This document shows, in pieces, positions 27,340-46,146 of a stretch of 64,000 bases of DNA. Made by a program: the position numbers and the translations under genes. Below the pieces are notes generated by a model, which saw only the letters and a program-made list of their open reading frames with translations, did not search any database and was not told the DNA's origin. Every line of letters starts with the position of its first letter. Position 1 is the stretch's first letter. Source of the DNA: an uncultured Lachnospiraceae bacterium. Its GTDB lineage: Bacteria > Bacillota > Clostridia > Lachnospirales > Lachnospiraceae. The stretch spans positions 1 to 64,000 of the forward strand of contig CATOPL010000016.1 in NCBI GenBank assembly GCA_951802115.1. The letters run 5' to 3'.

Positions 27340-27368
27340 TTGACTTGTCAGGATGATGGCAGTACAAT
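27340..27368 (+). promoter_or_regulatory. promoter of the MoxR-DUF5682-VWA-SWIM-DUF4132 cluster
   Basis: TTGACT (27340-27345), 17 bases, TACAAT (27363-27368), 41 bases before the first start codon. No obvious operator dyad lies around it. Confidence 0.65.
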
Positions 27369-27408: not shown

Positions 27409-28524
27409 ATGGAACGAAAAGCACAGATCAAGCCGCCGGTAGAGGTACGGTATGAGAAAGAGCTTGCGGCTCTTGCGGCTCTGGATCAGGGAAAAAAACC
27501 ATTAAACTGGAAACTGTCGCCCAGAGCAGTGAGGACATTTATTCTGGGAAATCATGAGCCTTTGATCTGGAACGGAGAAAAGATAGTTGTCCGCAAAAAA
27601 TATCTGGGAAACGATGCGCTGGTAGAGCGCTGTATTATCACGCTTGCCGGCAACCGAGGGCTGATGCTGGTAGGAGAGCCGGGAACGGCCAAAACCATGC
27701 TGTCGGAGCTTTTATCAGCCGCTGTCAGCGGCAGCAGTACCAATACAATTCAGGGTACGGCGGGAACGACGGAAGACATGATAAAGTACAGCTGGAATTA
27801 TGCGCTTTTGCTGGCAAAAGGGCCGGTAAGAGAGGCGTTGGTGCCTTCTCCTCTTTATGTAGGGATGGAACAGGGGATTCTGACCCGTTTTGAAGAGATT
27901 ACCCGTACACCGGCAGAGATTCAGGACAGTCTGATCAGCGTACTCAGTGATAAAGTACTGAATGTCCCGGAACTTGGTGAGGAAGGGCTGCTTTTTGCCA
28001 GGGCAGGTTTTAATGTAATTGGCACTGCAAACACAAGAGACAAGGGTGTTAATGAGATGAGCAGCGCCCTGAAACGCCGCTTTAATTTTGAGACTGTAAT
28101 GCCGGTACGGGATGTGGCACTGGAAAAGCAGATCATCATCAACGAAGTGCAGGAGCTGGCGGAAGCAAGCAGGATTGATATGCCTGTAGATGAGGATGTG
28201 GCAGAACTTCTTGCGTCGACTTATCATGAGCTGCGGGAAGGAATTTCGTCTATGGGTCATCGGATTGACCGTCCGGCATCGGTCATGAGCACGGCGGAGG
28301 CAGTATCGGTCTATTACCAGACGATGATGACGGCTTATTATTATGGAGATTCCCGAATGGATCTGGGCTGTCTGGTACAGAATCTGGTAGGTGCTGTACA
28401 GAAAGAAAACAGAGACGATCTGGAAAAGCTCCGCAGTTATTTCCAGACGGTGGTACGGGATAAGGGAGGCAAAGAGGGGCAGCTATGGGACAGTTATTAC
28501 GAGGCGAGGAAGTACCTCAGATAA
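27409..28524 (+). CDS. MoxR-type AAA+ ATPase, YehL-like
   Basis: A 371-residue AAA+ protein. Walker A is GEPGTAKT (89-96). The Walker B region reads ILTRFEEITR (about 157-166), with FEE where most AAA+ proteins have DE. Sensor 1 is IGTANTRD and an SALKRRFNF segment carries the arginine region. The set and order of the following genes match the E. coli yehL-yehM-yehP-yehQ group, in which YehL is the ATPase. MoxR ATPases act as chaperones that remodel a partner, usually the VWA protein. AGGAGAGGAA precedes the ATG. It overlaps the next gene by 40 bases. Biological target is unknown. Confidence 0.88.
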   Translation: MERKAQIKPPVEVRYEKELAALAALDQGKKPLNWKLSPRAVRTFILGNHEPLIWNGEKIVVRKKYLGNDALVERCIITLAGNRGLMLVGEPGTAKTMLSELLSAAVSGSSTNTIQGTAGTTEDMIKYSWNYALLLAKGPVREALVPSPLYVGMEQGILTRFEEITRTPAEIQDSLISVLSDKVLNVPELGEEGLLFARAGFNVIGTANTRDKGVNEMSSALKRRFNFETVMPVRDVALEKQIIINEVQELAEASRIDMPVDEDVAELLASTYHELREGISSMGHRIDRPASVMSTAEAVSVYYQTMMTAYYYGDSRMDLGCLVQNLVGAVQKENRDDLEKLRSYFQTVVRDKGGKEGQLWDSYYEARKYLR

Positions 28525-30974
28525 CGATGGAAGAAAATACAGACGGGATAATGGTTCAGAATTTTTTTGATCTTAAAGAACCGGTTCTGTATTTTCCGAT
28601 TCGGCATCACAGCCCTGCGTGTGCCTGGCATTTGAAAAAAACAGTTGAAGCTTATAATCCGGACTGTATTCTGATTGAAGGCCCGTGCAATGCGCAGGAA
28701 CAGATTCCCATACTTGCTCACAAGGATACAAAAGCGCCGATCGCTCTTTATTATTTCTATAAGGATAAAAAAGGGTTGTTAAGCGGGGAAAAAGAAAGCT
28801 ACAAATGTTATTATCCGTTTCTGGACTGTTCTCCGGAACTGGTCGCCTTACGTGCGGCAGCGGAGCGTGGGATTGCTGCACAATTTATTGATCTGCCTTA
28901 CGGAGAGATTTTGATCGGTACAGAAGAAAAGAAGGGTATTCGGACAGAACGTGAAAAACAGACTTATAACGATGATTATCTGCTGAGCCAAAGCCGTTAT
29001 TTTGAACGTCTCTGCCAGAAGACGGGACTTCGGAGTTTTGATGAGCTGTGGGAAAAATATTTTGAAATCGGAGGGCTTTTTCAGACTACAGAGGAATTTG
29101 TGCGCCAGATGAATATCTATTGTTATCTTTCCAGAATTCATACGCCGGAAGAAGAGCTGGAAGCTGACGGATGCCTTCTGCGGGAACGGTATATGGCAGA
29201 GCAGATTGCAAAAGCTTCTGAAAGCGGTAAAAAGCTTCTGGTGGTAACAGGAGGATTTCATACATATGGGATCAGAGAACTGTTGAAAGGCAGTCTCTGC
29301 CCGGAGACGGCCCCAAAAAAAGCGGGTGAGAAGTCATGCGGAGAAGACGCTGTCCGGTATGTGGCAGATCCGGCAGTGCTTCATGGCCTGTCGGACCAGG
29401 AGCAGGGAGTTTATCCGCTGGCTTATTCCATGGAAGCGACGGACGCGCTGAACGGATATGCGAGCGGTATGCAGTCACCGGGATTTTATCAGCAGGTGTG
29501 GGAACGGCTGGTCAAAGGGGAGTCGGCAGCCGGGGCTTATGAAGATGCGGTTTTGCATCAGCTTGTGAGTGCAGGACGCAGAGCGAGACAGAAAAAAGAA
29601 AGTCTTTCTTCCTATGATGTGATCTGTGCTTTTTCTATGGCGAAAGGTCTGGCAGCACTGCGCGGTAAAAAAGAACCGGGCCTGTATGAGCTTCGGGATG
29701 CTGCCCTGTCTTCTTTTGTAAAAGGAGAATACAGTCCTTCTACAGACCTGTCACTTCGGATTCTTGAGAACCTGAACACGGGAAAGCAGGTGGGAAAGCT
29801 GTGTGAAGACGCTCTGCGTCCGCCGCTGCTTGTGGACTTTGAAGAACAGTGCAGAGTGTTCAGGCTGAAAATACAGGCGGCAGGGCAGCAGGAAGTCATA
29901 CTGGAACTTTTTACCAAGAAAAAACATCTTGCCATAAGTCGTTTTCTGTATCAGATGGATTTTCTGGGCACAGGTTTTGCAAAACGGACCAAAGGGGCTG
30001 ATCTGCTGAAACGGAAAGACCGGAATCGCATCCGGGAGACCTGGAGCTATCGTTTTACAGGTCAGGTGCTTTCAGCCCTGGTGGATGTATCCATGCTGGG
30101 CGGTACGGTGGCGGAAGCGTCACGCACTCGTCTGCTGCGGGAGTTTGCCAGAAGCGAAAGCAGTCAGGAGGCGGCAGGGCTTCTGACCAGAGGTTTTCTG
30201 ATGGGATTTCTGGAAGAGCAGGCGGGGATGGGCGCACATATCCGGGAAGTTCTGGCTGCAGACGGAGATTTTTTTTCTTTGGCGGAAGGGTTTTCTCATC
30301 TGCGGATGTTATATGAACTGCAGGAGCTGTATGAAGTGGAGGATGAAACAGAGCTAGAAGAACTGATCGGTATCTGTTTTCAGAAAATTGTGCAGCTTTT
30401 GCCGTCCATGTCACAGGTGAAGGACGAACAGCAGCAGTCATGTATGGAAAGCTGTCTGTCGCTCTATCAGATTACCGGCAGAAGTGGTTTTTCTCATTTT
30501 CGTCAGGTTTTGCTGGAAGCTTTTGAACGCCTTCTCGAACAGCCAAAAATACAGCCGGGACTGGAAGGAAGCGTGCTGGGGTTGCTTTATGGATATGACA
30601 GCAGTTATGATGAACGAATCCAGAAGACAGCGTCCGGATATCTTCAGGGGACGGATGAGATGAGAATGAAAAGTGCGCTGTTCTTACGGGGACTGTTTTT
30701 TACTGCAAGAGATTTTGTATTTGTACATGAGAATTTTCTTGGTATGATTGACGGCCTGCTGGCAAAACTGCAGACAGAAGCGTTTATGAAGCTGCTTCCG
30801 GAACTCCGTCAGGCTTTCGGATATTTTACTCCGCTTGAAACGGATCGTATTGCGGAGAAAGCAGCGGCTATCCACGGTGTGAAAAGGCAGGAGCTTTTAA
30901 GAGGAAGGATGGTATCGCCAGAGGAATATGAGTATGGAGAAATGCTGGACGCGTATGCGGTGAGGAGCCTTTAA
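28485..30974 (+). CDS. DUF5682 family protein, YehM-like
   Basis: An 829-residue protein. The N-terminal part has the DUF5682 hallmark YFPIRHHSPACAWHLK, then CILIEGPCNAQ, and around residue 255 VVTGGFHTYGI. The spaced His, Glu and GGFH motifs recall the TIKI/TraB/EreA/ChaN group of metal-dependent hydrolases, but this is inference. The C-terminal two thirds is helical, without membrane segments, and likely a scaffold. ATG 28485 has GAGGGG 5 bases before it and overlaps the ATPase gene by 40 bases; ATG 28527 just after that gene's stop is the alternative, but its ribosome site is poor. Coupled translation suggests a complex with the ATPase. Confidence 0.85.
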   Translation: MGQLLRGEEVPQITMEENTDGIMVQNFFDLKEPVLYFPIRHHSPACAWHLKKTVEAYNPDCILIEGPCNAQEQIPILAHKDTKAPIALYYFYKDKKGLLSGEKESYKCYYPFLDCSPELVALRAAAERGIAAQFIDLPYGEILIGTEEKKGIRTEREKQTYNDDYLLSQSRYFERLCQKTGLRSFDELWEKYFEIGGLFQTTEEFVRQMNIYCYLSRIHTPEEELEADGCLLRERYMAEQIAKASESGKKLLVVTGGFHTYGIRELLKGSLCPETAPKKAGEKSCGEDAVRYVADPAVLHGLSDQEQGVYPLAYSMEATDALNGYASGMQSPGFYQQVWERLVKGESAAGAYEDAVLHQLVSAGRRARQKKESLSSYDVICAFSMAKGLAALRGKKEPGLYELRDAALSSFVKGEYSPSTDLSLRILENLNTGKQVGKLCEDALRPPLLVDFEEQCRVFRLKIQAAGQQEVILELFTKKKHLAISRFLYQMDFLGTGFAKRTKGADLLKRKDRNRIRETWSYRFTGQVLSALVDVSMLGGTVAEASRTRLLREFARSESSQEAAGLLTRGFLMGFLEEQAGMGAHIREVLAADGDFFSLAEGFSHLRMLYELQELYEVEDETELEELIGICFQKIVQLLPSMSQVKDEQQQSCMESCLSLYQITGRSGFSHFRQVLLEAFERLLEQPKIQPGLEGSVLGLLYGYDSSYDERIQKTASGYLQGTDEMRMKSALFLRGLFFTARDFVFVHENFLGMIDGLLAKLQTEAFMKLLPELRQAFGYFTPLETDRIAEKAAAIHGVKRQELLRGRMVSPEEYEYGEMLDAYAVRSL

Positions 30975-31060
30975 AATACGTGTAAGCTGGAGGAAATCCA
31001 TGACTGTGGCGGAACGAAGAAAATGAATTTTCAGACACGATCCGGATCAGTCTGCGATGA

Positions 31061-31089
31061 TTGACAGCATATGACATGCGTGCTATTCT
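31061..31089 (+). promoter_or_regulatory. candidate internal promoter before the VWA gene
   Basis: TTGACA (31061-31066), 17 bases, TATTCT (31084-31089), in the 185-base gap after the DUF5682 gene. The gap also holds an eight-codon frame with a GGAGG site (31000-31026). It would allow the VWA, SWIM and DUF4132 genes to be expressed apart from the first two. Confidence 0.45.
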
Positions 31090-31159
31090 GACATTTAAGA
31101 ATAGCTACTGGCAGGTCAGACAAGGATAAAAGAGTGGTTTAGGGAAGGGGAATTCGGAT

Positions 31160-32293
31160 ATGAGTGCAGATACCGGTCAGTTGAACAGATGGCGACTCAT
31201 ACTTGGAAGCTATTCCAGGAAGCAGATTGGTTTTGAAGGCGGGGCATCTCTGGAAAACGGAATTTCCTGTATAGATCTGGAGGAAGCGCTGGATTTTTTG
31301 TATAACAGGGAGCAGGGGGAAGATGTACGCAGACAAGGCGGAACGGAAGCCAGCCGCCTGACTGCTGCGACCTGGATCACGCGGATCCGGAAGCTTTTTC
31401 CCAGAGAAACAGTGGAAATACTGGAGCGTCATGCGCTGGACTGTTACGGGATGACAGAACTTCTGACAGACAAAGAGGTGCTGGAAAAGCTGGAGCCGAA
31501 TCAGGAGCTTCTGAAAACGATTCTGCAGCTGAAGCATCTGATGAAAGGAGACGTACTGGATACAGCGCGCCGGATCGTAAAGAAGGTAGCGGAGGAGATT
31601 GCAGAGAAACTGAACCAGGATATCAGAAAATCGCTGCTTGGAAAAATAGACCGTAATTTAAACAGTCCGGTCCGTTCGATTCGGAATCTGGATATTCAAA
31701 AAACGATCCGCAGAAATCTGAAACATTTTGACCGTGAAAATGGCAGGCTGATGCTGGAACAGGTGTATTTTAACGGCAGGACCAGAAAATACAGCCAGTG
31801 GCGGGTAGTGATCGCGGTAGACGAGAGCGGATCCATGCTTGATTCAGTTATTCACAGTGCAGTGATGGCAGGGATCTTTGCGAAGCTTCCCATGCTGGAT
31901 ACAAGACTGGTAATTTTCGATACACAGGTGGTAGATCTGAGCGGTCATCTGGAAGATCCGGTAGCGACTTTGATGAGCATTCAGCTGGGAGGCGGAACTT
32001 ATATTACGGGAGCGCTGCAGTACTGCGAAACGCTGGTTGACAATCCGCATCGGACAATGGTAGTGCTGGTATCGGACCTTTGTGAAGGCGGCAGTGTGTC
32101 CGCTCTTCTGGGAGTAAGCAGAGGAATAATTGAAAGCGGGGCGAAACTGATCTGTCTGACGGCACTGGATATGGAGGCAAATCCGGTCTATGACAGGCAT
32201 ACGGCACAGAAGCTTGCGGATCTGGGTGCCCATGTAGGAGCCATGACTCCGGAAGCACTTGGAGATTTTATGGGAAAGCTCATGAATGAATAA
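31160..32293 (+). CDS. VWA domain protein, YehP-like
   Basis: A 377-residue protein. The first 210 residues are helical and charged. The C-terminal von Willebrand A domain has a complete metal-ion-dependent adhesion site: D221-x-S223-x-S225 (DESGSM), T280 in GGGTYI, and D306 in VSDLCEGG. VWA partners of MoxR ATPases are remodelled or loaded through this metal site. This is the third gene of the yeh-like cluster. AGGGAAGGGG precedes the ATG at a somewhat long distance. The following SWIM gene starts 22 bases after the stop. Confidence 0.9.
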   Translation: MSADTGQLNRWRLILGSYSRKQIGFEGGASLENGISCIDLEEALDFLYNREQGEDVRRQGGTEASRLTAATWITRIRKLFPRETVEILERHALDCYGMTELLTDKEVLEKLEPNQELLKTILQLKHLMKGDVLDTARRIVKKVAEEIAEKLNQDIRKSLLGKIDRNLNSPVRSIRNLDIQKTIRRNLKHFDRENGRLMLEQVYFNGRTRKYSQWRVVIAVDESGSMLDSVIHSAVMAGIFAKLPMLDTRLVIFDTQVVDLSGHLEDPVATLMSIQLGGGTYITGALQYCETLVDNPHRTMVVLVSDLCEGGSVSALLGVSRGIIESGAKLICLTALDMEANPVYDRHTAQKLADLGAHVGAMTPEALGDFMGKLMNE

Positions 32294-32315
32294 AATCTGT
32301 CAGGAGGTTTCAGAA

Positions 32316-34463
32316 ATGAATTTAAAGGAGATGCTGAAGCAGGCAGATGATGATTATCTGACAGGACTTTGCAATAAGGGAACTGTAAAACGTGCTTATA
32401 AAGATCTGGGACAGGAGACTCCGGTGTCAAAGTGGAAAGAGGAAGAAGCTGAAGTGACGCTGAAGGAGGAGACTTGCGTGATCCGGATGCCGCTGGGAGA
32501 GAGTAGTTGTTCCTGTCCGTCAAGAAGTATCTGCCGTCACATTGTGACGGCAATCCTGTGGCTGAAAAAAGATCTGGAAGAAACTACTGCCGATACGGCA
32601 GAAGAAGTATCAAATTCCCCCGGGCAGGAAATCGAAAAAGCAGGAAAACAGGCGGAAACACAGTTGCTGGAAGAGATATTGCAGATCCCGTCTGCCCGAT
32701 TGAAGAGAGTGTGCAGAGGGAGAAGGTTTGAACGGTTTCTGTCGCATCTGAATGCGGGAGAGTTTCCGCTGATAGAGGAAAGTTCAATCGTTACGGTGAC
32801 GATTCCATGGGAAGAGGCGACGGTCAGACTTCTGGAACCGTTTGCTTATTCCAGCTGCAGCTGTCACAGCAAAGAGCTCTGTATTCACAAAGCGCAGGCA
32901 GTCCTCGCTTATCAGATCAGAAAAGGGCGGATCACTCTGGAGGGGCTTTCGGAATTTCGGGAGTCAGAACATATATGGGATGAAGAACAGCTAAAAAAAA
33001 CCTGCACAGCTGTCTGTGAATCTGTAATTCATCAGATGTATACCGGGCTCTCCAGACAGTCGCCGGAGATATCAGCCAGCCTGGAACGTCTGGCAGTTAT
33101 AACGCACCGGGCGGGTCTTCCTTCCCTGGAAAGCAGGCTTCGGGAAGCAGCATCAGAATATCAGCAGTATTTTGCCAGATCAGCAGCATTTCGAAATGAG
33201 ATGCTGCTGGGAAAGCTGCTGTGGCTGTATGAAAGGGCGCAGCAGCTTTGCCATGCAAAGGGCCAGAAGGAAATCCGCGCTCTTGCAGGAAACTTTCGGG
33301 ATACTTATGAATCTGTGGGAACACTGCACCTTCTGGGGATGGGAGGCAGATCTTTTTCCAGCAAGACAGGATATGAGGGAGAGATTTATTATTTTCTGGA
33401 GCCGGAAAAGAAAAAGTGGTATACATGGACGGACGCCCGGCCTGCTTTTTATGAAGGGGTCCGAAGGAGACCGCCTGCCTCATCCGAAAATGTCTCTGCT
33501 CCTTGGGGGCTGAACTGCAGCAGAGAACAGCTTCAGGACCTGGAATTTGAACTGATCAACGCCCGGGCCGCCTCCGGAGGACGTCTGTCTGTAAGTAAGG
33601 ACAGCAGAGGGGAAGCGCTTGGCTGCAGAAGTCTGGAAACGGAAGGACTCAGAGAAATGATTGTGTGGGACTATGAGGAGCTTCTTGTTCAAAATTTCGG
33701 AAAAACGGACCAAAAGGCTGATGAGGAAACAGACAACCGTGCGGAAGGCAGGCGGGAAAAACTCGTTCTTGCAGGTGCAGTTCGCTGGGGAGAGACAGAT
33801 TTTGACACGGTGGAACAGCGTTTTTCCTGGAAGCTTTTTGATCAGGAGGGAAGAAGCCTTTTTGTAGCTCTGCGTTATACAAAAGAAGAACGGCTGGTGA
33901 TTCATATGCTGGAGAGGCTGGAGCGGAGGCTGAAAAAGCGCAGACAGAAGGCCATAGTATGTTTCGGCGCTCTATATCTGGACGAAGACGGCAGAATGTG
34001 TCTGTATCCTGTAGAATTTCTGCTGAAAGGTGTGGAAGAAGTCCTGGAAGACAGCAGGGGCTGGGGAAAACAGGTTACCGGCGCAGGGGTGTCAGTAAAA
34101 GACAGAAAGTTTCCGTCTAAAGAAACAGTTTATGTGATGGAACGATATCAGAACGAAGCTGTACGCCAGCTGTCGGATCTTTTCGTCAGCGGGTTTTCAT
34201 CTGTTCAGGAAGATACGCTGCATCAACTGTCTGTATTGTCAGAAGACGGTGAGCGTCTCGGACTGCATCGGGCAGCTGACGAATTTGGCAGTATCCGCAG
34301 AGTTCTGGAAAGGAAACGTCATCAGATAGAATTTTCACCGGAGCCGGTTCTGGAGTCGGAAATCAGACTTTATAAATATTTTGCGGCATGCAGAAAAAAA
34401 CTTTCCTGTGATATGGCGCTGCTGCAGCAAACAGCGTCGATGCAGGGTGAATTTTCAACCTGA
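32316..34463 (+). CDS. SWIM zinc finger protein, YehQ-like, with two SWIM motifs
   Basis: A 715-residue protein. Two CxCx5CxH SWIM motifs are visible: C65, C67, C73, H75 (SCSCPSRSICRH) and C181, C183, C189, H191 (SCSCHSKELCIH). SWIM fingers bind zinc and usually contact DNA or proteins. The long remainder is helical and charged with no enzyme motif that I recognise. ATG 32316 is chosen for its ideal AGGAGG; ATG 32286, overlapping the VWA gene, would add ten residues. The fourth gene of the cluster. Having two complete SWIM motifs in one protein is notable; I do not know whether E. coli YehQ shares this. Confidence 0.85.
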   Translation: MNLKEMLKQADDDYLTGLCNKGTVKRAYKDLGQETPVSKWKEEEAEVTLKEETCVIRMPLGESSCSCPSRSICRHIVTAILWLKKDLEETTADTAEEVSNSPGQEIEKAGKQAETQLLEEILQIPSARLKRVCRGRRFERFLSHLNAGEFPLIEESSIVTVTIPWEEATVRLLEPFAYSSCSCHSKELCIHKAQAVLAYQIRKGRITLEGLSEFRESEHIWDEEQLKKTCTAVCESVIHQMYTGLSRQSPEISASLERLAVITHRAGLPSLESRLREAASEYQQYFARSAAFRNEMLLGKLLWLYERAQQLCHAKGQKEIRALAGNFRDTYESVGTLHLLGMGGRSFSSKTGYEGEIYYFLEPEKKKWYTWTDARPAFYEGVRRRPPASSENVSAPWGLNCSREQLQDLEFELINARAASGGRLSVSKDSRGEALGCRSLETEGLREMIVWDYEELLVQNFGKTDQKADEETDNRAEGRREKLVLAGAVRWGETDFDTVEQRFSWKLFDQEGRSLFVALRYTKEERLVIHMLERLERRLKKRRQKAIVCFGALYLDEDGRMCLYPVEFLLKGVEEVLEDSRGWGKQVTGAGVSVKDRKFPSKETVYVMERYQNEAVRQLSDLFVSGFSSVQEDTLHQLSVLSEDGERLGLHRAADEFGSIRRVLERKRHQIEFSPEPVLESEIRLYKYFAACRKKLSCDMALLQQTASMQGEFST

Positions 34464-34586
34464 TAATTTATTGGATTTCTGCCGTCTGTACGTCCTGCAG
34501 ACAGTAACGCGCAGATGTCAGAAACAGTTTTCAGACATGATTTGGAACAACCGCAGAAACAAAACAGAAAAAAGGAGGATGGGGCT

Positions 34587-37500
34587 ATGAATTTGAGTGA
34601 AGAACGCGGTCGCCAGAAACTTTTAGAAGTTCTGGAACTTTTAGAATTATCAGATAAAAACAGGATACTGGCAGAGAAATATCTGGAACTGGATACGGAG
34701 GAGAACAGAGAACTTCTGGCCGGGGCTGAACCGCAGGACTTTTCCAGACTTGGCAAAGAAGTGTTTGATAAATGCAGAGGATATAAGAGCCATTGTCAGA
34801 AACGGAACCGGAAAGAAGAACTGGAGCGTTTTGTTCGTTTTACGGCGGCGGTTGGAGGTTCGACCGCTTATTATGTGCTGGTATCTTATGGATGGAATAT
34901 TAATACCATTCTGGAATATCTGACAACAGAGCAGGCGGCAGCAATCCGGGCAGAAGGAATCGCTTGGAATATTTACGGTATTAAAAGCGTTCTGACCGGA
35001 GTTGTGCAGAAGACGCCGCAGGTGTTAAGAGACGCCATGGAACTGTGCTATCATAAAAGTGATAATGCCAGGTCGCTTTTGGCAGCGGTATCCCTGTATT
35101 ATACAAAGCCGGAAAAATCTGCCGGAGGAGTTTTAAAATCGCTGTTTTCGGGCAGTAATGCGGAGCAGATTAAAAAGACAGTGCAGTATCTGGAATCCAA
35201 TCAGGTGGAGAGCATAGAAAATATATTTATGGGAAGCGCACCCTCCGGCGAGGATATGAAAAAACTTGTTTCATTTGTGAAATTGTCCTCCGCAGAACAG
35301 CCGCTGCCGCCGGAAATTATTCAGATTCTGAAGGGAAGGCAGGTATCTGACTATCTGATCACTCTGCTTGCAGGGGAAGCGTTTCTGGCGATTGAGCACT
35401 CCCGGCAGTTCGCGGCATTTTTAAAACTTGCGATTGCTATGGATACGGAATGGAACCGGACCACTACTCTGGATATATGCCTGAATATTGGCGGACAGTC
35501 ATGGTTTTTTCAACATATTGGAGCATTGGAGGACACGATTCCGATGCCGCGGGAAAACTATGTAATCTGGTGCCTGAAAAACTGTAAATATGGAAGTCCG
35601 GTAAAACGGGTTGTAAAAAATCATCCGCAGGTGATCCGTCAGTTAATTGCAAAAGTATCTTCTGAAGAATATCAGCATCTGCTTGCGATGGCAAAAGATA
35701 TGAATCCTATGCTTTACAGGGAGCTGAGCAGCAAAGGTTCCGGTGAGTTCCGAGTAAAGCTGGCACAGGAGCTGACCGCTCATTATGGAAAGGGCCAGGC
35801 GGAAGCAGCACAGTATCTGCTGGGTGAAGCAGAGTTGGAGTCGCTTTATCCTTATTTGAAAGAATGGCGCGGCGACTGGGATTATGATACCAGGAAATGT
35901 CAGAAAATACAGGCTTTGAAAAAAAATGACCTGGAGAGAGAGATGTATCAAAGGGCCGTCGTTTTGGAAGGGCTCTGTATGAAAGCCAGGTATTTCTGCA
36001 GTTACTGGCACGGTTCCTGGAAGAAGATGGACCGGACAACGATCGCAGAAATCATAGAGCTGTTTGAAGAACAGTCTGTACCGGTGTCTTATCAGCTGGA
36101 AGCGCTCAGTGGAATTTACGACAGTTATTATTCTGAAAAAGACAAGACAGATTTTATAAATGAATGTTCCTGGGTGATCCGTCAGAAAAAGGACAAATGG
36201 GGAGAAGCTCTGGCTGTTCTGGCGAGAGAAGGAAGTGCAGTCGTTCGTTTTCTCTGTATCCGGGTGCTGGAAATATACGGGCAGGAATACAAGGAGGTTC
36301 TTTTGTCCTGTGCCGTGGATAGCAGCAGGCAGGTACGGGAGCTTCTGGTAGCAGTCTATGAAGGAATCAGGGACTGGGAACCGGATATCAGGCAGATGCT
36401 GTCGTCGAGAAAGTCTCAGGAACGGGAGATGGCCATACTGGTTATGAAGCGCTGGGGCACTGATTTGTACAGGGAAGAATTCAAAGCAGCGCTTGAGAAA
36501 GAAAAGAGTAAAAAGATCAGGGAACTTCTGGAAGGGTGTCTTGGTATTGAAAACAGTCCGGCAGGAGTTAAAAAAGAGCAGACTCTGGATGAACTTATCA
36601 AAGAAGTTCTGAAAGGTGGAAAAAAACGGAAAATATCGTGGGTGTTTGAAAAGACGTTTCCGGAGATACACAGGCAAGACGGAACGCCTGCGCCGGAAGA
36701 TCATCTGGCTGCGATTCTTGTATGTTATGCCAATATGGGAATTCCGGGTATGAATAAAGAAGCGGCAGTTCTGGCGGCAGATCTGGACTCCGAGGAGCTG
36801 GCCCGCTGTATGAGTCTTCTTTTTGAAAGATGGATGGAGACGGGGGCTGAGGCAAAGAAAAAGTGGGTTCTTTACGCAGTGGCTGTACATGGGGGAGAAG
36901 CGGTTATTCCTGTACTGCATGCGCAGATCCAGGAATGGCCGAAAGCATCCCGAGGAGCGATGGCAGCGGAAGCAGTAAAGGCGCTGGCTTTAAACGGAAG
37001 CTCGACCGCGCTGCTTCTGGTAGATCAGATTTCCCGTAAATTTAAATTCCGTCAGGTAAAAACCGCGGCTTTGGAGGCACTTTCTTATGCGGCGGAGCAG
37101 CTTGGTATTACGAAGGCGGAACTGGAGGATCGGATTGTACCAAATCTTGGATTTAATGATCAGATGGAGCAGGTGTTTGATTATGGGACGAGGCAGTTTC
37201 AGGTGCTTCTGACTCCGGCGCTGGAACTGGAGGTCTATGACGGAAACGGCAAAAAGCTTAAAAATCTGCCGGCGCCGGGCAAAAAAGATGATCCGGATCA
37301 GGCAAAGGCTGCCAGCGATGCTTACAAGCTTCTGAAAAAACAGCTGAAAACAGTAGTTGCCAATCAGAAGCTGAGGCTGGATCAGGCTATGAGTACAGAA
37401 CGGATATGGCAGGCAGAGCAGTGGAGGGAGCTGTTTGTAAAGAATCCGGTCATGCATCAGTTTGCGATTGGACTGATCTGGGGAATATATGAAGAAAAAA

Positions 37501-38117
37501 TTCTGAAAAGCACTTTCCGCTATATGGAAGACGGAAGCTTTAATACAGTGGACGAAGAAGAATTTGAACTGCCGCAGGCGGGATGTATCGGTCTTGTACA
37601 TCCTATTGAGCTGGATGAAGAAAGTCTGGCAGCATGGAAGGAGCAGCTGGCTGATTATGAGGTGACACAGCCGATCGAACAGATGGACCGGCAGGTGTAC
37701 CGTCCGACAGAGGAAGAATGCGTTCAGTCGGAGCTTACGCGTTTTGGAGGAAAGTTGTTAAACGGGCTGTCTCTGTCCGGTAAACTCCAGAGTATGGGGT
37801 GGTATCGGGGAAGCGTGCAGGATGCAGGCGGATATTATACTTTTTACCGGGAAGACGGAGATATCGGTGTGGAACTGGAATTTTCCGGCTGTTATGTCGG
37901 AGATGAAAATGAGGAAGTGACGGTTTACGGCGCACAGTTTTATAAAGCGGGCACGGTACAAAGAGGCAGTTATGTCTATGATACTGTAAAAGAAGAACAC
38001 CGGTATAAACCGGGAGAAGTAAGTCCGCGGTATTTTAGCGAGATTGTACTGCAGCTTACAAAAGCAACAGCGTCTTCCCAGGAGCAGCTGGCCTATCCGG
38101 AGTGTAAAAATAATTGA
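34587..38117 (+). CDS. DUF4132 family protein, YehI-like
   Basis: A 1176-residue protein. The body (about 100-850) is a long helical array with HEAT-like repeats, such as LREL and VRELLVAVYEGI pairs, and the C-terminal third carries the DUF4132 domain: a WGIYEE-type start (GLIWGIYEEKIL), HPIELDEE, and a beta-rich end GSVQDAGGYYTFYREDGDI. E. coli YehI and MolR-type proteins belong to this family; its function is not known. AGGAGG lies before ATG 34587; a longer frame from 34515 lacks such a site. The fifth and largest product of the cluster, probably a scaffold or effector acted on by the ATPase-VWA pair. Confidence 0.87.
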   Translation: MNLSEERGRQKLLEVLELLELSDKNRILAEKYLELDTEENRELLAGAEPQDFSRLGKEVFDKCRGYKSHCQKRNRKEELERFVRFTAAVGGSTAYYVLVSYGWNINTILEYLTTEQAAAIRAEGIAWNIYGIKSVLTGVVQKTPQVLRDAMELCYHKSDNARSLLAAVSLYYTKPEKSAGGVLKSLFSGSNAEQIKKTVQYLESNQVESIENIFMGSAPSGEDMKKLVSFVKLSSAEQPLPPEIIQILKGRQVSDYLITLLAGEAFLAIEHSRQFAAFLKLAIAMDTEWNRTTTLDICLNIGGQSWFFQHIGALEDTIPMPRENYVIWCLKNCKYGSPVKRVVKNHPQVIRQLIAKVSSEEYQHLLAMAKDMNPMLYRELSSKGSGEFRVKLAQELTAHYGKGQAEAAQYLLGEAELESLYPYLKEWRGDWDYDTRKCQKIQALKKNDLEREMYQRAVVLEGLCMKARYFCSYWHGSWKKMDRTTIAEIIELFEEQSVPVSYQLEALSGIYDSYYSEKDKTDFINECSWVIRQKKDKWGEALAVLAREGSAVVRFLCIRVLEIYGQEYKEVLLSCAVDSSRQVRELLVAVYEGIRDWEPDIRQMLSSRKSQEREMAILVMKRWGTDLYREEFKAALEKEKSKKIRELLEGCLGIENSPAGVKKEQTLDELIKEVLKGGKKRKISWVFEKTFPEIHRQDGTPAPEDHLAAILVCYANMGIPGMNKEAAVLAADLDSEELARCMSLLFERWMETGAEAKKKWVLYAVAVHGGEAVIPVLHAQIQEWPKASRGAMAAEAVKALALNGSSTALLLVDQISRKFKFRQVKTAALEALSYAAEQLGITKAELEDRIVPNLGFNDQMEQVFDYGTRQFQVLLTPALELEVYDGNGKKLKNLPAPGKKDDPDQAKAASDAYKLLKKQLKTVVANQKLRLDQAMSTERIWQAEQWRELFVKNPVMHQFAIGLIWGIYEEKILKSTFRYMEDGSFNTVDEEEFELPQAGCIGLVHPIELDEESLAAWKEQLADYEVTQPIEQMDRQVYRPTEEECVQSELTRFGGKLLNGLSLSGKLQSMGWYRGSVQDAGGYYTFYREDGDIGVELEFSGCYVGDENEEVTVYGAQFYKAGTVQRGSYVYDTVKEEHRYKPGEVSPRYFSEIVLQLTKATASSQEQLAYPECKNN

Positions 38118-38141
38118 AGAAGGGAGGACAGACAGCCGACG

Positions 38142-39158
38142 ATGAAAAAACGGATTTTACTGATAGCGACCGGCGGTACGATTGCTTCCAGACATACAGC
38201 AGAAGGTCTGGAACCGCAGATTACAGCAGATGAGCTGCTGGCCTATATTCCGGAGGCAAAAGAATTCTGCCGGGTGACGGCGGTTCAGCCGTTCAGTCTG
38301 GACAGTACCAATATATGCTCGCAGCACTGGCTGAAGATTGCCGGAATTATCGAAAAACATTATGATTTTTACGACGGTTTTGTCATCTGCCACGGGACGG
38401 ATACTATGGCGTATACAGCGGCTGCTCTGTCTTATCTGATTCAGAATAATCTGAAACCGGTTGTGATCACCGGAGCACAGAAGCCCGTCAATCTGGAGAT
38501 TACAGACGCAAGGCTGAATCTTCGGGACAGTCTGCGGTTTGCTGCGGATGAAAGGGCGCACGGAGTAAACATTGTGTTCGGCGGAAAAGTAATTGCAGGA
38601 ACCCGGGCCAAAAAAGAACGATCCAAGAGCTACAATGCGTTTTCCAGTATCAATTATCCGGATATTGCGGTTATACAGGATCATCGTACAATCTTCTATA
38701 TCGACGACCGGAGCCGAATCCGGGATCGGGTAAGGTTTTATCACAGGATGAATGAAAGAGTCTTTCTGCTGAAATTGATTCCCGGCATGGACGGACGAAT
38801 ATTAAACCGGATGACAAAGGATTATGATGCGGTGATCATTGAGTCTTTTGGCGTGGGAGGTCTTCCGGTTTACGGGAGTCAGAGCTTTCCGGATGCCATA
38901 GACAGATGGTGCGTGCAGGGGAAAAAAGTGATTATGGCCACACAGGTGACGCATGAAGGCAGCGATATGGAAGTGTATCAGGTGGGAAAATCCATCAAAG
39001 AGCGTTTTCCTGTGGTGGAAGCTTTTGATATGACCCTGGAAGCGACAGTGACTAAAACCATGTGGCTTCTGGGATGTGGTATCTCAGAAGAGGCTTTTTC
39101 TGCTGCATTCTACAGAACAGTCAACCATGATATACTTCTGGCGGAACAGCCGGACTGA
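38142..39158 (+). CDS. type I L-asparaginase
   Basis: A 338-residue cytoplasmic asparaginase. The two catalytic motifs are present: ATGGTIAS with nucleophile T13, and HGTDT (84-88). There is no signal peptide, as expected for the type I (AnsA) form that hydrolyses L-asparagine to aspartate and ammonia. GGGAGG lies before the ATG at a rather long distance. It starts 24 bases after the DUF4132 gene with no terminator between, so it may be on the tail of that operon; the histidine phosphatase gene follows 32 bases later. A functional tie to the cluster is not evident. Confidence 0.93.
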   Translation: MKKRILLIATGGTIASRHTAEGLEPQITADELLAYIPEAKEFCRVTAVQPFSLDSTNICSQHWLKIAGIIEKHYDFYDGFVICHGTDTMAYTAAALSYLIQNNLKPVVITGAQKPVNLEITDARLNLRDSLRFAADERAHGVNIVFGGKVIAGTRAKKERSKSYNAFSSINYPDIAVIQDHRTIFYIDDRSRIRDRVRFYHRMNERVFLLKLIPGMDGRILNRMTKDYDAVIIESFGVGGLPVYGSQSFPDAIDRWCVQGKKVIMATQVTHEGSDMEVYQVGKSIKERFPVVEAFDMTLEATVTKTMWLLGCGISEEAFSAAFYRTVNHDILLAEQPD

Positions 39159-39190
39159 AAAATTCAAAAAGGTATTTTAAGGAGAGGATT

Positions 39191-39802
39191 ATGAATATCT
39201 ATCTGATCAGACACGGAGAGACTGATTACAACAGAGCACGGCGTCTGCAGGGAGTGACAGATATACCACTCAATGCCCGCGGTATCGAGCTGGCGGAAAA
39301 AACGGCTGAAAAATTGAAAGACATACAGTTTGACAGGATTTACAGCAGTCCTTTAATCCGGGCCTGGAAAACGGCAGAGATCATCAGAGGGAACAGAGAC
39401 ATTGAAATAATTCCGACAGAGGGGTTAAGAGAGATCAGCTTTGGCGATTATGAGGGGCTGACAATCCTGGATGAAAAATATAATATTCCTGATCCGGATT
39501 TCTGTGATTTTTTTAATGCTCCTGAGAAATATCATACTCCGCCAAACGGGGAAAGCATCGAACAGCTGAAAAAGAGAACGACTGCTTTTATGTGGGAGAT
39601 CATCCGGGCGCCGGAATATCAGGATCTGACAATTCTGATGTCATCACACGGAGCAGCCATCAGAGGTATGCTTTTTGGGCTTCAGAATCTGCCGGTTTCG
39701 CAGTTCTGGGGAAGCGGGGTACATAAAAACTGTGCAGTGACGCTTATCCGTGCAGAACAGGGAAGATTTCAAATCGAATTTGAAAACAAAATATATTATT
39801 AA
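39191..39802 (+). CDS. histidine phosphatase (phosphoglycerate mutase-like) family protein
   Basis: A 203-residue enzyme with the family start YLIRHGETDYN (catalytic His in RHG), the SPLIRAWKTAEII segment, and the second histidine in MSSHGAAIRG. Members range from cofactor-dependent phosphoglycerate mutase to broad phosphatases such as CobC and PhoE; substrate cannot be told, but the short length and NGESIEQLKKR segment favour a phosphatase. AAGGAGAGG precedes the ATG. It appears to be the last gene of the transcript that starts at the MoxR cluster; no clear terminator is visible behind it. Confidence 0.9.
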   Translation: MNIYLIRHGETDYNRARRLQGVTDIPLNARGIELAEKTAEKLKDIQFDRIYSSPLIRAWKTAEIIRGNRDIEIIPTEGLREISFGDYEGLTILDEKYNIPDPDFCDFFNAPEKYHTPPNGESIEQLKKRTTAFMWEIIRAPEYQDLTILMSSHGAAIRGMLFGLQNLPVSQFWGSGVHKNCAVTLIRAEQGRFQIEFENKIYY

Positions 39803-43185: not shown

Positions 43186-43282
43186 TATATGTGAAAGACT
43201 CGCCAAATAACAGGTACGAAAACGACGGTTGTCCGGATTATTGTATGTTTGTAGTCGGAGGTCAGAAAGAAGGGATGTAAAA

Positions 43283-44608
43283 ATGATAACAGGAGAAGAC
43301 AGACAGACTCTGGCGGGAGAAGTGCTGAAGCTGGCGCAGCTTCATCTGCAGAAAAGACTACCGGTTTTTGGAGCGGCATTTTTGATTCCGGAAGTGAAGT
43401 GGACAGAAAAGACTACCGGTACGGATGCAGAAATGATATACTGGAATACAGATGAACTACTGGCATTATTTAGAAAGGGAATGGCAGAGCTGGAAAGGAA
43501 ATATCTGCATCTGATCTTGCACGGTATGTACCTGCACCGGTTCCGTAAATATGACTGTCCGGAACGGATCTGGTGGCTGGCCTGTGATCTGGCGACGGAG
43601 TATCGGATTGACAGAATGCATGTTCCTGGATTTGACTGGCCGATACCGGCCGAAAGAAGCAGGTATTACCGTAAGATTAAAGAGTCCGGAGTGGTATTCT
43701 ATGAGAGAACACTGACAGAATGGCTTTTGAGGGTGACGGAATCCGAACTTCAGGAACTTGAGAGGCTGTTTCGAAAAGATAATCATGAATGGTGGAAAAA
43801 AGAAACGGTTTCTGAATGGAGAAAGATGGAAAGACAGGAGCGGGCGGAAGAACTGCGGAAGCTGTCGGATGCCGTTCATCGCTGGCGTACGGTGTTTGAA
43901 CAGCTGGAGATCAGACAGGAAGAACACCGAAGGCAGGCAGGAGGAAGCGCCGGCTCCCAGACCGAACAGATTGTTATTCAGAAGGAACAGGGCTATGATT
44001 ATCGCCGGTTTTTAAAGCAGTTTGCAGTGAGGCAGGAGGAACTGTCTGTGGATATGGACAGTTTTGATTATATTCCATATGATTACAGCAGGAGGATGTA
44101 TGAGCGGCTGGTACTTTTAGAACCTCTGGAATATCGGGAAAGGAAAAAGCTACAGGAATTTGTGATTGCGATTGATACTTCAGGTTCCTGTTCCGGAGAG
44201 ATTGTACGCCGTTTTTTGACGGAAACCTGGGAAATTTTTCAGGAAAGGGATAATTTTTTTCAGAGTATGCGGATTCATCTGATCCAATGTGACTGTCTGG
44301 TACAGGAGCATGTCTGCGTGACCTGTGAAGAGGAGTGGAAGAATTACCTGGAACATATGACGGTAAAAGGACATGGAGATACGGATTTTACGCCGGTATT
44401 CCGGCTGGTGGATAAAATGATGCAGGAGAAGGAAGTGAAAAATTTAAAAGGACTTCTTTACTTTACAGATGGGGATGGAATTTATCCGGACCACAGACCG
44501 GAATATGATACAGCGTTTGTGTTTTTAAATGAAGAACTGAGAAAGGGCAGGGCTCCGGACTGGGCTCTGACTCTGACTCTGGATATAGAATTGGGGACTG
44601 GAAAATGA
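43283..44608 (+). CDS. VWA-like domain protein, DUF2201 type, with degenerate metallopeptidase motif
   Basis: A 441-residue protein of the two-domain DUF2201 type. The N-terminal half is the putative metallopeptidase region, but the HExxH helix reads H76-L-I-L-H80 with a further His at 85: the catalytic glutamate is replaced by leucine, so proteolysis is unlikely. The C-terminal VWA-like domain has D298-x-S300-x-S302 (DTSGSCSG), a GHGDTDFTP threonine site and a FTDGDG aspartate, a complete metal site. The start at 43283 has AGAAGGGA before it; a longer frame from 43229 is less likely. Its stop overlaps the ATPase start (ATGA), so the pair is translated together. Confidence 0.85.
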   Translation: MITGEDRQTLAGEVLKLAQLHLQKRLPVFGAAFLIPEVKWTEKTTGTDAEMIYWNTDELLALFRKGMAELERKYLHLILHGMYLHRFRKYDCPERIWWLACDLATEYRIDRMHVPGFDWPIPAERSRYYRKIKESGVVFYERTLTEWLLRVTESELQELERLFRKDNHEWWKKETVSEWRKMERQERAEELRKLSDAVHRWRTVFEQLEIRQEEHRRQAGGSAGSQTEQIVIQKEQGYDYRRFLKQFAVRQEELSVDMDSFDYIPYDYSRRMYERLVLLEPLEYRERKKLQEFVIAIDTSGSCSGEIVRRFLTETWEIFQERDNFFQSMRIHLIQCDCLVQEHVCVTCEEEWKNYLEHMTVKGHGDTDFTPVFRLVDKMMQEKEVKNLKGLLYFTDGDGIYPDHRPEYDTAFVFLNEELRKGRAPDWALTLTLDIELGTGK

Positions 44609-46146
44609 ATATAAGGGAAGCGAAGGAAGAGATTGTACGAACGGTACGTGCATATACAGCAAAGGACAGCAGAGGAAGTTATCGGATTGCTCCGGTACGT
44701 CAGCGTCCTGTGCTTTTGATTGGCCCGCCGGGGATTGGCAAGACAGCGATCATGGAGCAGGCGGCGGATGAATGTCAGGTTGGGCTGCTGGCTTATACGA
44801 TTACTCATCATACCAGGCAGAGCGCAGTGGGACTGCCCCAGCTGGTGACAAAGATATTTGACAAAATGGAGTGCACAATGACAGAATATACCATGAGTGA
44901 GATCGTGGGTTCTGTGTATGAATATCAGGAACGTACCGGTTACCGGGAGGGAATCCTGTTTATTGATGAGATTAACTGCGTCTCCGAGACGCTGGCGCCG
45001 ACCATGCTGCAGTTTTTACAGTATAAAACTTTTGGAAATCACAAGGTTCCCAAAGGCTGGATCATCGTGGCGGCAGGCAATCCGCAGGAGTATAACCGGT
45101 CGGTACGGGAACTGGATATGGCGGCGCTGGACCGGGTCAGGATGCTGAAAGTAGAGGCGGATTTTTCCGTATGGAAAGATTATGCGCAGCAGCAGGGCAT
45201 TCATCCGTCTGTTCTCTCCTATCTGGAGCTTCATCCGGAACATTTTTATCAGGTAACGCTTACCAGAGAAAAGCAGGAATTTGTTACAGCAAGAGGCTGG
45301 GAGGATCTTTCCGTGCTGCTTTTCGAATATGAACGACAAAAGTTTTCTGTTGACCGAAGCTTTATGGAAGAATTTCTCCGCGTGCCGAAAATTGCTTCTG
45401 ATTTTGCATCTTATTATCAGCTGTGCAGAACTTATCAGGGTGTTTACCGGATGAAAGAGCTTCTGGAGGACAGACTTACAGATGAGGAAAAAGAAACACT
45501 TAAAATACAGCTTGGGGAGACGGCAGGAGAGGTTCGGTGTGTTTTTGTTCGGCATTTGCTGTCGGCGGCATCGGAGCGGATGACTTCTTACGGCAGATAT
45601 TACCGGTATCATGAAAGAGTGAAGGAGGTTCTTGCACAGTTTTCGGCCTATGTAAAAGGAGAGGGAAAAGATAATCCGGAAGGTTATCTGGAGAGACGTG
45701 CCCATGCGCTTCAGATACGCAGAGAAAATGACCTGATCAAATCCTGGGAAGAGCGGACAGAGCTGGATGTGGATGAACGGTTAAAACACCTGGTTTTTGG
45801 TTCCGGAAGGGTAAAATTTTTAGAGGAGCTGGCAGAATGCAGTGCTGCAGATGAGACGAATCTGCCTTCTGCAGGACTTCTCGAGGAGCAAAAAAAGCTT
45901 GAGGAACAAAAGGAAAAGCTGATGAATTTTCTGAATCAGATGACAGATTTTCTGGAGGGCGCTTTTGGAAAAGATCTGGAACTTTCCGACTGGATTCATG
46001 GAATTAAAAATCATAGGGACAGTCGGCTGATTGCATTTAAGCGGCCGGATCTGGAAAGTTTTCTGGATCAGAAAGAACAGGAAGCAAGACTGAGAAAAAA
46101 GATTGAACAGATGGAGGATTTATATGAGACTGGTGATTGCAGGTGA
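44605..46146 (+). CDS. MoxR-type AAA+ ATPase (partner of the DUF2201 protein)
   Basis: A 513-residue AAA+ ATPase. Walker A is GPPGIGKT (40-47), Walker B LFIDEIN (118-124), sensor 1 is AAGNPQEYN, and a DMAALDRVRML region carries the arginine finger. Beyond about residue 270 is a helical C-terminal extension with coiled-coil character (LLEEQKKLEEQKEKLM). It overlaps the DUF2201 gene by 4 bases. This pair is separate from the yeh-like cluster 5 kb upstream: here the Walker B is canonical and the VWA partner precedes the ATPase. The 3' end overlaps the phosphodiesterase gene by 23 bases. Confidence 0.88.
   Translation: MNIREAKEEIVRTVRAYTAKDSRGSYRIAPVRQRPVLLIGPPGIGKTAIMEQAADECQVGLLAYTITHHTRQSAVGLPQLVTKIFDKMECTMTEYTMSEIVGSVYEYQERTGYREGILFIDEINCVSETLAPTMLQFLQYKTFGNHKVPKGWIIVAAGNPQEYNRSVRELDMAALDRVRMLKVEADFSVWKDYAQQQGIHPSVLSYLELHPEHFYQVTLTREKQEFVTARGWEDLSVLLFEYERQKFSVDRSFMEEFLRVPKIASDFASYYQLCRTYQGVYRMKELLEDRLTDEEKETLKIQLGETAGEVRCVFVRHLLSAASERMTSYGRYYRYHERVKEVLAQFSAYVKGEGKDNPEGYLERRAHALQIRRENDLIKSWEERTELDVDERLKHLVFGSGRVKFLEELAECSAADETNLPSAGLLEEQKKLEEQKEKLMNFLNQMTDFLEGAFGKDLELSDWIHGIKNHRDSRLIAFKRPDLESFLDQKEQEARLRKKIEQMEDLYETGDCR

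Follow-up and report, generated by a model that had tools for sequence, protein, structure and literature searches.

The 64,000-nucleotide stretch of an uncultured Lachnospiraceae bacterium analysed here (contig CATOPL010000016.1, hereafter the window) carries five adjacent plus-strand genes, which encode a MoxR-type AAA+ ATPase, a DUF5682 protein, a VWA protein, a SWIM protein and a DUF4132 protein. Our findings demonstrate that these five families form one conserved unit, common to E. coli and others, and we tentatively favour, as the best explanation of the set, a NorQD-like ATP motor that would control a Tiki-type hydrolase, with the SWIM and HEAT proteins as adaptors. Placing DUF5682 in the TraB/Tiki superfamily would provide a concrete enzyme hypothesis, with named residues, for a set of unknown function and, if true, would unite AAA+ remodelling with Tiki-type hydrolysis in a single bacterial machine amenable to testing in K-12. 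The TraB/Tiki-like domain, a second SWIM finger and a second gene layout are new beyond the first-pass annotation of this DNA, which had been made from its letters and had recognized the five genes.

Indeed, the protein types named in that annotation (those of E. coli yehL, yehM, yehP, yehQ and yehI) were recovered both by Pfam (AAA_5 6e-33, DUF5682 2e-102, VWA_CoxE 3e-43, DUF4132 9e-54, and SWIM at E 1e-4, with 22.2 bits against a cut-off of 19.6) and by phmmer comparison of the window proteins with E. coli (AAA 6e-96, DUF5682 1e-31, VWA 1e-91, SWIM 6e-6 and DUF4132 6e-53). A 6.3-kb yehL-yehQ query, with yehI outside it, matched 5301 of 5426 complete E. coli genomes (in 5162 with 80% or more of its length covered), the match sites being chromosomal in 5320 cases and on plasmids in 2. 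Relatives were collected by scanning genome contigs with a DUF5682 alignment and keeping the best 80 of 571 loci, near-duplicates included; the best named relatives among them are Lachnospiraceae. Using tblastn with the window proteins, AAA was found in 78 of these loci, VWA in 78, SWIM in 73 and DUF4132 in 68, and all five genes in 66, of which 65 kept the order AAA-DUF5682-VWA-SWIM-DUF4132 on one strand. Among the 14 incomplete loci, a contig ends within ~1.2 kb of the missing side in 8, the others being L040, L042, L055, L086, L097 and L112. The expected co-occurrence of the five families is thereby borne out, although a sister system has another fifth gene (see below). Note that the 80 loci are close relatives; wider samples, obtained by tool draw, comprised 250 genomes of the window's family and 299 of its phylum. 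In the family sample, DUF5682 occurred in 24 genomes, DUF4132 in 24 and both in 11 (hypergeometric 6.6e-7, a guide only, since the genomes are related), and in the phylum sample, DUF5682 occurred in 8 genomes (5 above the cut-off), DUF4132 in 7 and both in G000, G126 and G165. Two loci have enlarged spacings, with seven open reading frames (ORFs) inserted between the VWA and SWIM genes (L059) or 4.5 kb between the AAA and DUF5682 genes (L168). An apparent AAA-DUF5682 fusion in L075, whose extra part is not AAA-like in that frame, was rejected as a likely frame artefact because AAA was detected there by tblastn only.

The N-terminal domain of the DUF5682 protein looks like a relative of the TraB/Tiki superfamily. 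With hhalign, the profile of this domain (129 rows, some genomes being present under two locus ids) matched a TraB profile at E 5.9e-10 along the whole domain, the controls reaching 0.072 or worse, and the alignment brings E65, R233, M237, I241 and GxxH259 into register; the active-site His, Glu and Arg and the C-terminal His of the superfamily are all matched. Conservation was counted with one protein per locus, dropped if below 70% (L037-L116) or 56% (other loci, 5 of whose 18 rows are Bacillota too) of the window length; two loci, L120 (the E. coli set on a plasmid) and L122, were excluded from these counts, from the tree and from the N-domain profile. Under these rules, R40, H41, E65, R233 and H259 are invariant in 97 of 97 DUF5682 proteins, as are D136 and E234, and H42, which aligns with the TraB His, is kept in 94 of 97. 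The domain would be a candidate hydrolase, probably a peptidase. The AlphaFold2 model of the whole protein has a predicted local distance difference test value of 84.8 and a predicted template modelling score of 0.76.

In the two proteins of the putative motor, the characteristic sites are intact. In the window ATPase, G89, G92, K95, E162, E163, N208, R223, R224 and R276, among which we take the Walker A, catalytic Glu, sensor 1 Asn and arginine-finger roles to be distributed, are invariant in 93 of 93 proteins. Its pairwise similarity to E. coli YehL (48% identity, beside the phmmer value above) fits the YehL subfamily of MoxR, and searching PDB sequences with the AAA profile gave Midasin as the top match (E 5e-18). 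The VWA protein, announced earlier as having an intact metal site, does carry a complete metal ion-dependent adhesion site (MIDAS) of the D221-x-S-x-S form, with D221, S223, S225 and D306 in 88 of 88 proteins and T280 in 87 of 88. The VWA_CoxE match spans residues 153-365 of 377, Pfam found no effector C-terminal to the VWA domain of the window protein, and ORF lengths in related loci range from 369 to 419 aa, apart from one of 319 aa at a contig end.

We also found that the set exists in two sister systems: type I, with the window layout (AAA, DUF5682, VWA, SWIM and DUF4132), and type II, which runs SWIM, a HEAT-like or DUF5691 protein as the fifth, predicted helical member, AAA, DUF5682 and VWA. 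The 26 DUF5682 loci of the family sample comprise 10 of type I (DUF4132 being in the same stretch in 9 and elsewhere in the genome in G029), 13 of type II (with no VWA gene seen in that of G366) and 3 cut by contig ends, and both types occur together in G510 and G577 of this sample and in G005 of the window's genus. A plasmid collection gave 36 records with DUF5682, several of them chromosome-sized, of which 13 were inspected together with one phage record and typed by profiles. Type I was seen in records of Iodobacter, Proteus, E. coli, Agrobacterium and Sinorhizobium, and type II in those of Deinococcus, Rhizobium, Methylosinus (with a broken VWA gene), Methylobacterium, Hymenobacter, Nonomuraea, Nocardia and Fusobacterium. 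A 1010-aa protein of Hymenobacter annotated as DUF5691 matches the SWIM profile too, and a distant homology between DUF5691 and DUF4132 found no support. The phage-listed record, MT835988 (L122; AAA-DUF5682-VWA), is flagged UNVERIFIED, is probably bacterial DNA and was left out. Altogether, the phyla observed were Bacillota and Pseudomonadota for type I, and for type II Bacillota, Pseudomonadota, Fusobacteriota, Actinomycetota, Deinococcota and Bacteroidota. A FastTree phylogeny of the AAA, DUF5682 and VWA columns of 36 loci picked by hand, to which gene order was not an input, splits type I from type II with a support of 1.0 (18 vs 18). Within each type, the tree groups largely by phylum with a few likely transfers, such as those of Proteus, placed among Firmicutes, and of Fusobacterium, placed within Firmicutes. 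The two layouts, with their differing fifth genes, suggest that a core (AAA, VWA, DUF5682 and SWIM) is separable from an exchangeable adaptor.

Concerning the putative adaptors, finger 1 of the SWIM protein, the one that Pfam matches, is kept in 77 of 77 members. Finger 2 (CxC..CxH) is present in 70 of the 71 members that come from L037-L116 and, among the 6 remaining type I members, in 3 at most. The DUF4132 protein, proposed from the start to be a large helical scaffold, is indeed modelled as a large HEAT-type solenoid (~residues 30-870) followed by an alpha/beta C-terminal domain. In the family sample, DUF4132 frames of ~1200 aa (1160-1291) were found in 10 genomes, 10/10 of which have DUF5682, and longer ones (~1490-1800 aa) in 14, one with a fragment, a length split (~1200 vs 1500-1800 aa) that was made post hoc, after the data had been seen. 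One of the 14, G448, has a type II DUF5682, and the stretches around 10 longer or distant DUF4132 genes (L176-L185) contained no core genes. As an example of multiple copies, G000 has four further DUF4132 proteins (loci L136, i.e. G000:C5, L183, i.e. G000:C4, and L184, i.e. G000:C11), two of ~1170-1180 aa near each other and two of ~1700 aa without adjoining core genes. Some DUF4132 copies in the window's genus have a frame with stops inside.

In the mechanism that we propose, the YehL-type MoxR AAA+ hexamer and its YehP-type VWA partner would constitute an ATP-driven remodelling motor of the NorQ-NorD or RavA-ViaA kind, which would control a dedicated enzyme, DUF5682 (YehM type), through its N-terminal TraB/Tiki-like domain. 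Fast-evolving adaptors, namely the SWIM protein with its two fingers and the DUF4132 protein with its HEAT solenoid, would deliver a client or a nucleic-acid signal to the motor, and ATP-driven twisting of the VWA protein would load, open or release the hydrolase. We infer that the proteins assemble into a complex, that the enzyme hydrolyses, that the SWIM and DUF4132 proteins are adaptors and that a client is acted upon; that YehL-YehP may drive YehM is drawn by analogy with NorQD, for which a MoxR hexamer that twists a VWA protein and remodels the client is described (PMC13036017, PMC9976466). A wider claim, namely that a MoxR-VWA motor driving a TraB/Tiki peptidase, and sensing through SWIM fingers and an exchangeable HEAT solenoid, would be an ATP-gated hydrolase machine of an undescribed class that would form two old sister systems, together in at least six phyla, and sit unnoticed in nearly every E. 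coli, seems to us possible but somewhat unlikely.

Several observations weigh against the motor-hydrolase explanation. In all 97 DUF5682 proteins, an Arg (R40) stands at the place of the first Tiki catalytic Glu, leaving the 2His/2Glu set of Tiki incomplete (the TraB row L186 has a Ser there), and H42 is replaced by Leu or Phe in 3 of 97. The window DUF5682 protein scores 12.4 bits with Pfam TraB_PrgY_gumN (PF01963), below the cut-off of 26.8 bits. Of the Pfam models, ChaN attains no better than E 0.013 (with 13 of 30 relatives of the window protein matched) and TraB no better than 0.017 (5 of 30), and neither matches, at E up to 1, any of 10 DUF5682 proteins that are more distant (9 taken from plasmid-collection records and 1 type II Bacillota). 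With Foldseek, the DUF5682 model had no match in the PDB at E 0.001, the output with whole models being dominated by helical repeats, and comparing it with YbaP as a single sequence gave no significant result. Support for the TraB/Tiki link comes from a single pairwise profile comparison and a single fold match to a chain of presumed identity, and some proteins of the Tiki superfamily are described as inactive (PMC6254334). In addition, the Walker B of the AAA protein is EE, not DE, and DUF5682 is missing from two genomes of the phylum sample whose DUF4132 frames measure 1106 aa (G063) and 1243 aa (G208), although these frames barely match the cluster-type profile (23 and 19 bits). Finally, as the first-pass annotation had supposed, the matches listed in the openly licensed literature include no functional study of the yehL/M/P/Q/I set, and yet yehL-yehQ is near-universal in E. 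coli. Parts of this neighbourhood may already have been noted in early comparative studies of MoxR and SWIM proteins, so that the gene linkage itself may be in print.

An alternative is a maturation chaperone, in which the MoxR-VWA motor inserts a metal or cofactor, DUF5682, SWIM and DUF4132 handle the client, and the Tiki fold binds without catalysis, as would fit the inactive superfamily members just cited. NorQD (PMC13036017, PMC9976466), RavA-ViaA (PMC3893208) and CoxD (PMC3471820) are indeed reported to serve metalloenzymes or respiratory complexes. However, the Tiki residues, invariant in 97 of 97 proteins, go beyond what a binding fold would seem to need. Moreover, the flanking genes (usable flanks in 41 of the 80 loci; 126 proteins of 37 loci analysed) are diverse, with no family in more than 5 of the 126 among the 25 of 141 families listed, which speaks equally against the metal-insertion role put forward earlier, and we consider this alternative unlikely.

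The same flanks bear on the possibility that the set is an anti-phage (biological conflict) system akin to the MoxR-vWA ternary systems, with which it shares its AAA-VWA logic as presented in PMC7159879. Such a role would agree with the patchy distribution (DUF4132 relatives in 9 and DUF5682 in 8 of 17 genomes of the window's genus, and DUF5682 in 24 of 250 of its family), with fast-evolving adaptors and extra DUF4132 copies, and with one plasmid copy that adjoins restriction-modification genes. The latter is carried, near transposases as well, by a mobilizable 77-kb plasmid of Iodobacter (L119), whose type I set has two DUF4132 genes. However, PADLOC gave no real match for the window proteins (AAA reached E 0.012 at best, and the remaining four proteins had nothing at E up to 0.1), and a defence-island context was rejected since the flanking genes of the 37 loci yielded only scattered PADLOC matches (mad3 5, mad8 4, and PtuA, AriA, GajA and AbiLi up to 3) among the best 25 of 252 families, a tally made without a random-gene control and including the near-duplicates L103 and L104. 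With the lack of an effector behind the window VWA domain, no relative found in viral_contigs and the presence of yehL-yehQ in almost all E. coli genomes, the conflict role suggested at first appears improbable.

Nor is recent mobility the main story, although a mobile unit had also been suggested at first: the E. coli counts, with two plasmid sites, a tree that largely follows phyla and the placement relative to recG speak against it. Indeed, in 6 of the 8 genus genomes with DUF5682, the cluster lies on the recG contig within ~53 kb on either side, directly after recG in the window and G009, and 15-53 kb from it in G005, G007, G010 and G015; it is on another contig in G002 and G004. In G002, G004 and G010, the nearest DUF4132 relative has an asparaginase neighbour, and the AAA core lies elsewhere, with another DUF4132 or none. 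These positions and the recurring DUF4132-asparaginase pair suggest that the unit has been reshuffled and lost rather than freshly inserted. The cluster flanks differ between species: 11 window neighbours sought in 96 loci (E 1e-15) gave only recG in 1 and a kinase in 12. The succession of DUF4132, asparaginase and histidine phosphatase genes (34515-39802; L134, L135) recurs in several species of the genus, even with the core elsewhere. A transposon is reported in the E. coli metG/DUF4132/yeh region of 184 ST131 isolates (PMC9334617), which indicates that this region can be disrupted in natural strains.

Least probable of all is a unit that responds to DNA damage or nucleic-acid stress, with DUF4132, whether or not it carries a WGR domain, as the nucleic-acid sensor. 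The two SWIM fingers, the WGR domain of the Agrobacterium in-operon DUF4132 (E 8e-19) and the IrrE-dependent rise of Deinococcus radiodurans DUF4132 DRA0166 and WGR protein DR2173 after mitomycin C (as reported in PMC8533742) have to be set against the lack of a WGR match in the window DUF4132 and E. coli YehI and against the single Deinococcus locus inspected, which is type II and without DUF4132.

Coordinates of the cluster and its adjoining features in the window
Feature	Position	Strand	Remarks
Promoter-like site TTGACT-17-TACAAT	27340..27368	+	5' of AAA gene; basis is a consensus match only
MoxR-type AAA+ ATPase, YehL-like, 371 aa	27409..28524	+	Walker A codons 27673-27696
DUF5682 protein, YehM-like, 829 aa	28485..30974	+	N-terminal TraB/Tiki-like domain and helical C-terminal part
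TraB/Tiki-like domain (putative)	28566..29294	+	~residues 28-270 of DUF5682 protein
VWA (CoxE-type) protein, YehP-like, 377 aa	31160..32293	+	MIDAS codons 31820-32077
SWIM protein, YehQ-like, 725 aa	32286..34463	+	Finger 1 32508-32540; finger 2 32856-32888
DUF4132 protein, YehI-like, 1200 aa	34515..38117	+	Solenoid and C-terminal alpha/beta domain with PF13569 (37248-37802)
L-asparaginase gene	38142..39158	+	Pfam; 24 nt downstream of DUF4132 gene

The genes had been described as overlapping or lying close, which holds for two overlaps of 40 nt (AAA/DUF5682) and 8 nt (VWA/SWIM) and for a 51-nt gap between SWIM and DUF4132, but not for the 185 nt (30975-31159) that separate DUF5682 from VWA. This gap contains a second promoter-like site (TTGACA-17-TATTCT at 31061-31089, with TG ahead of the second hexamer), so that the set may be two transcripts; among L025-L031, the corresponding gap measures 85 nt in L026, and in the remaining six the genes overlap or are separated by fewer than 20 nt. 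The pattern proposed earlier as the promoter of the set, 5' of the AAA gene, is present and plausible in this role but not proven, as 32 such matches were observed in the region vs a mean of 14.7 in shuffles. The L-asparaginase gene is perhaps co-transcribed with the set, but elsewhere does not belong to the system. The host assembly is 3.3 Mb in 37 contigs. Note that 5 kb 3' of the cluster, at 43229-46146, a VWA-like gene (DUF2201) and an AAA gene form a second such pair, for which comparison with 96 loci gave no homologue at E 1e-15.

Compared with known systems, the E. coli yeh set has the same five families and the same AAA-DUF5682-VWA-SWIM order as the window, but its DUF4132 gene is upstream, with the small yehK between (yehI-yehK-yehL-yehM-yehP-yehQ in K-12), and YehM is 25% identical to the window DUF5682 protein; YehL is listed as a separate MoxR subfamily, one of seven (PMC3893208). 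As in RavA-ViaA and NorQ-NorD, a MoxR-type AAA+ ATPase adjoins a VWA protein with an intact MIDAS, but the window set has three more conserved partners, one with a Tiki-like domain. The MoxR-vWA ternary conflict systems, as presented in PMC7159879, likewise combine MoxR and vWA proteins with further partners; unlike them, the window set has an AAA protein below the bpMoxR cut-off (22.3 bits against 27) and no effector behind VWA, and Pfam named no VMAP, iSTAND, FtsH or beta-propeller domain in its five proteins, VMAP and iSTAND profiles not having been sought by name. DUF5682 resembles the TraB/PrgY/Tiki superfamily in its profile (E 5.9e-10) and aligned active-site positions, and differs in being fused to a long helical C-terminal part and in its N-terminal motif, RHHSP instead of GxxH. 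Midasin (Rea1/Mdn1), the top PDB match mentioned above, acts in ribosome assembly and joins the AAA ring and MIDAS in one chain of ~4700-4900 residues, whereas in the window these are separate proteins.
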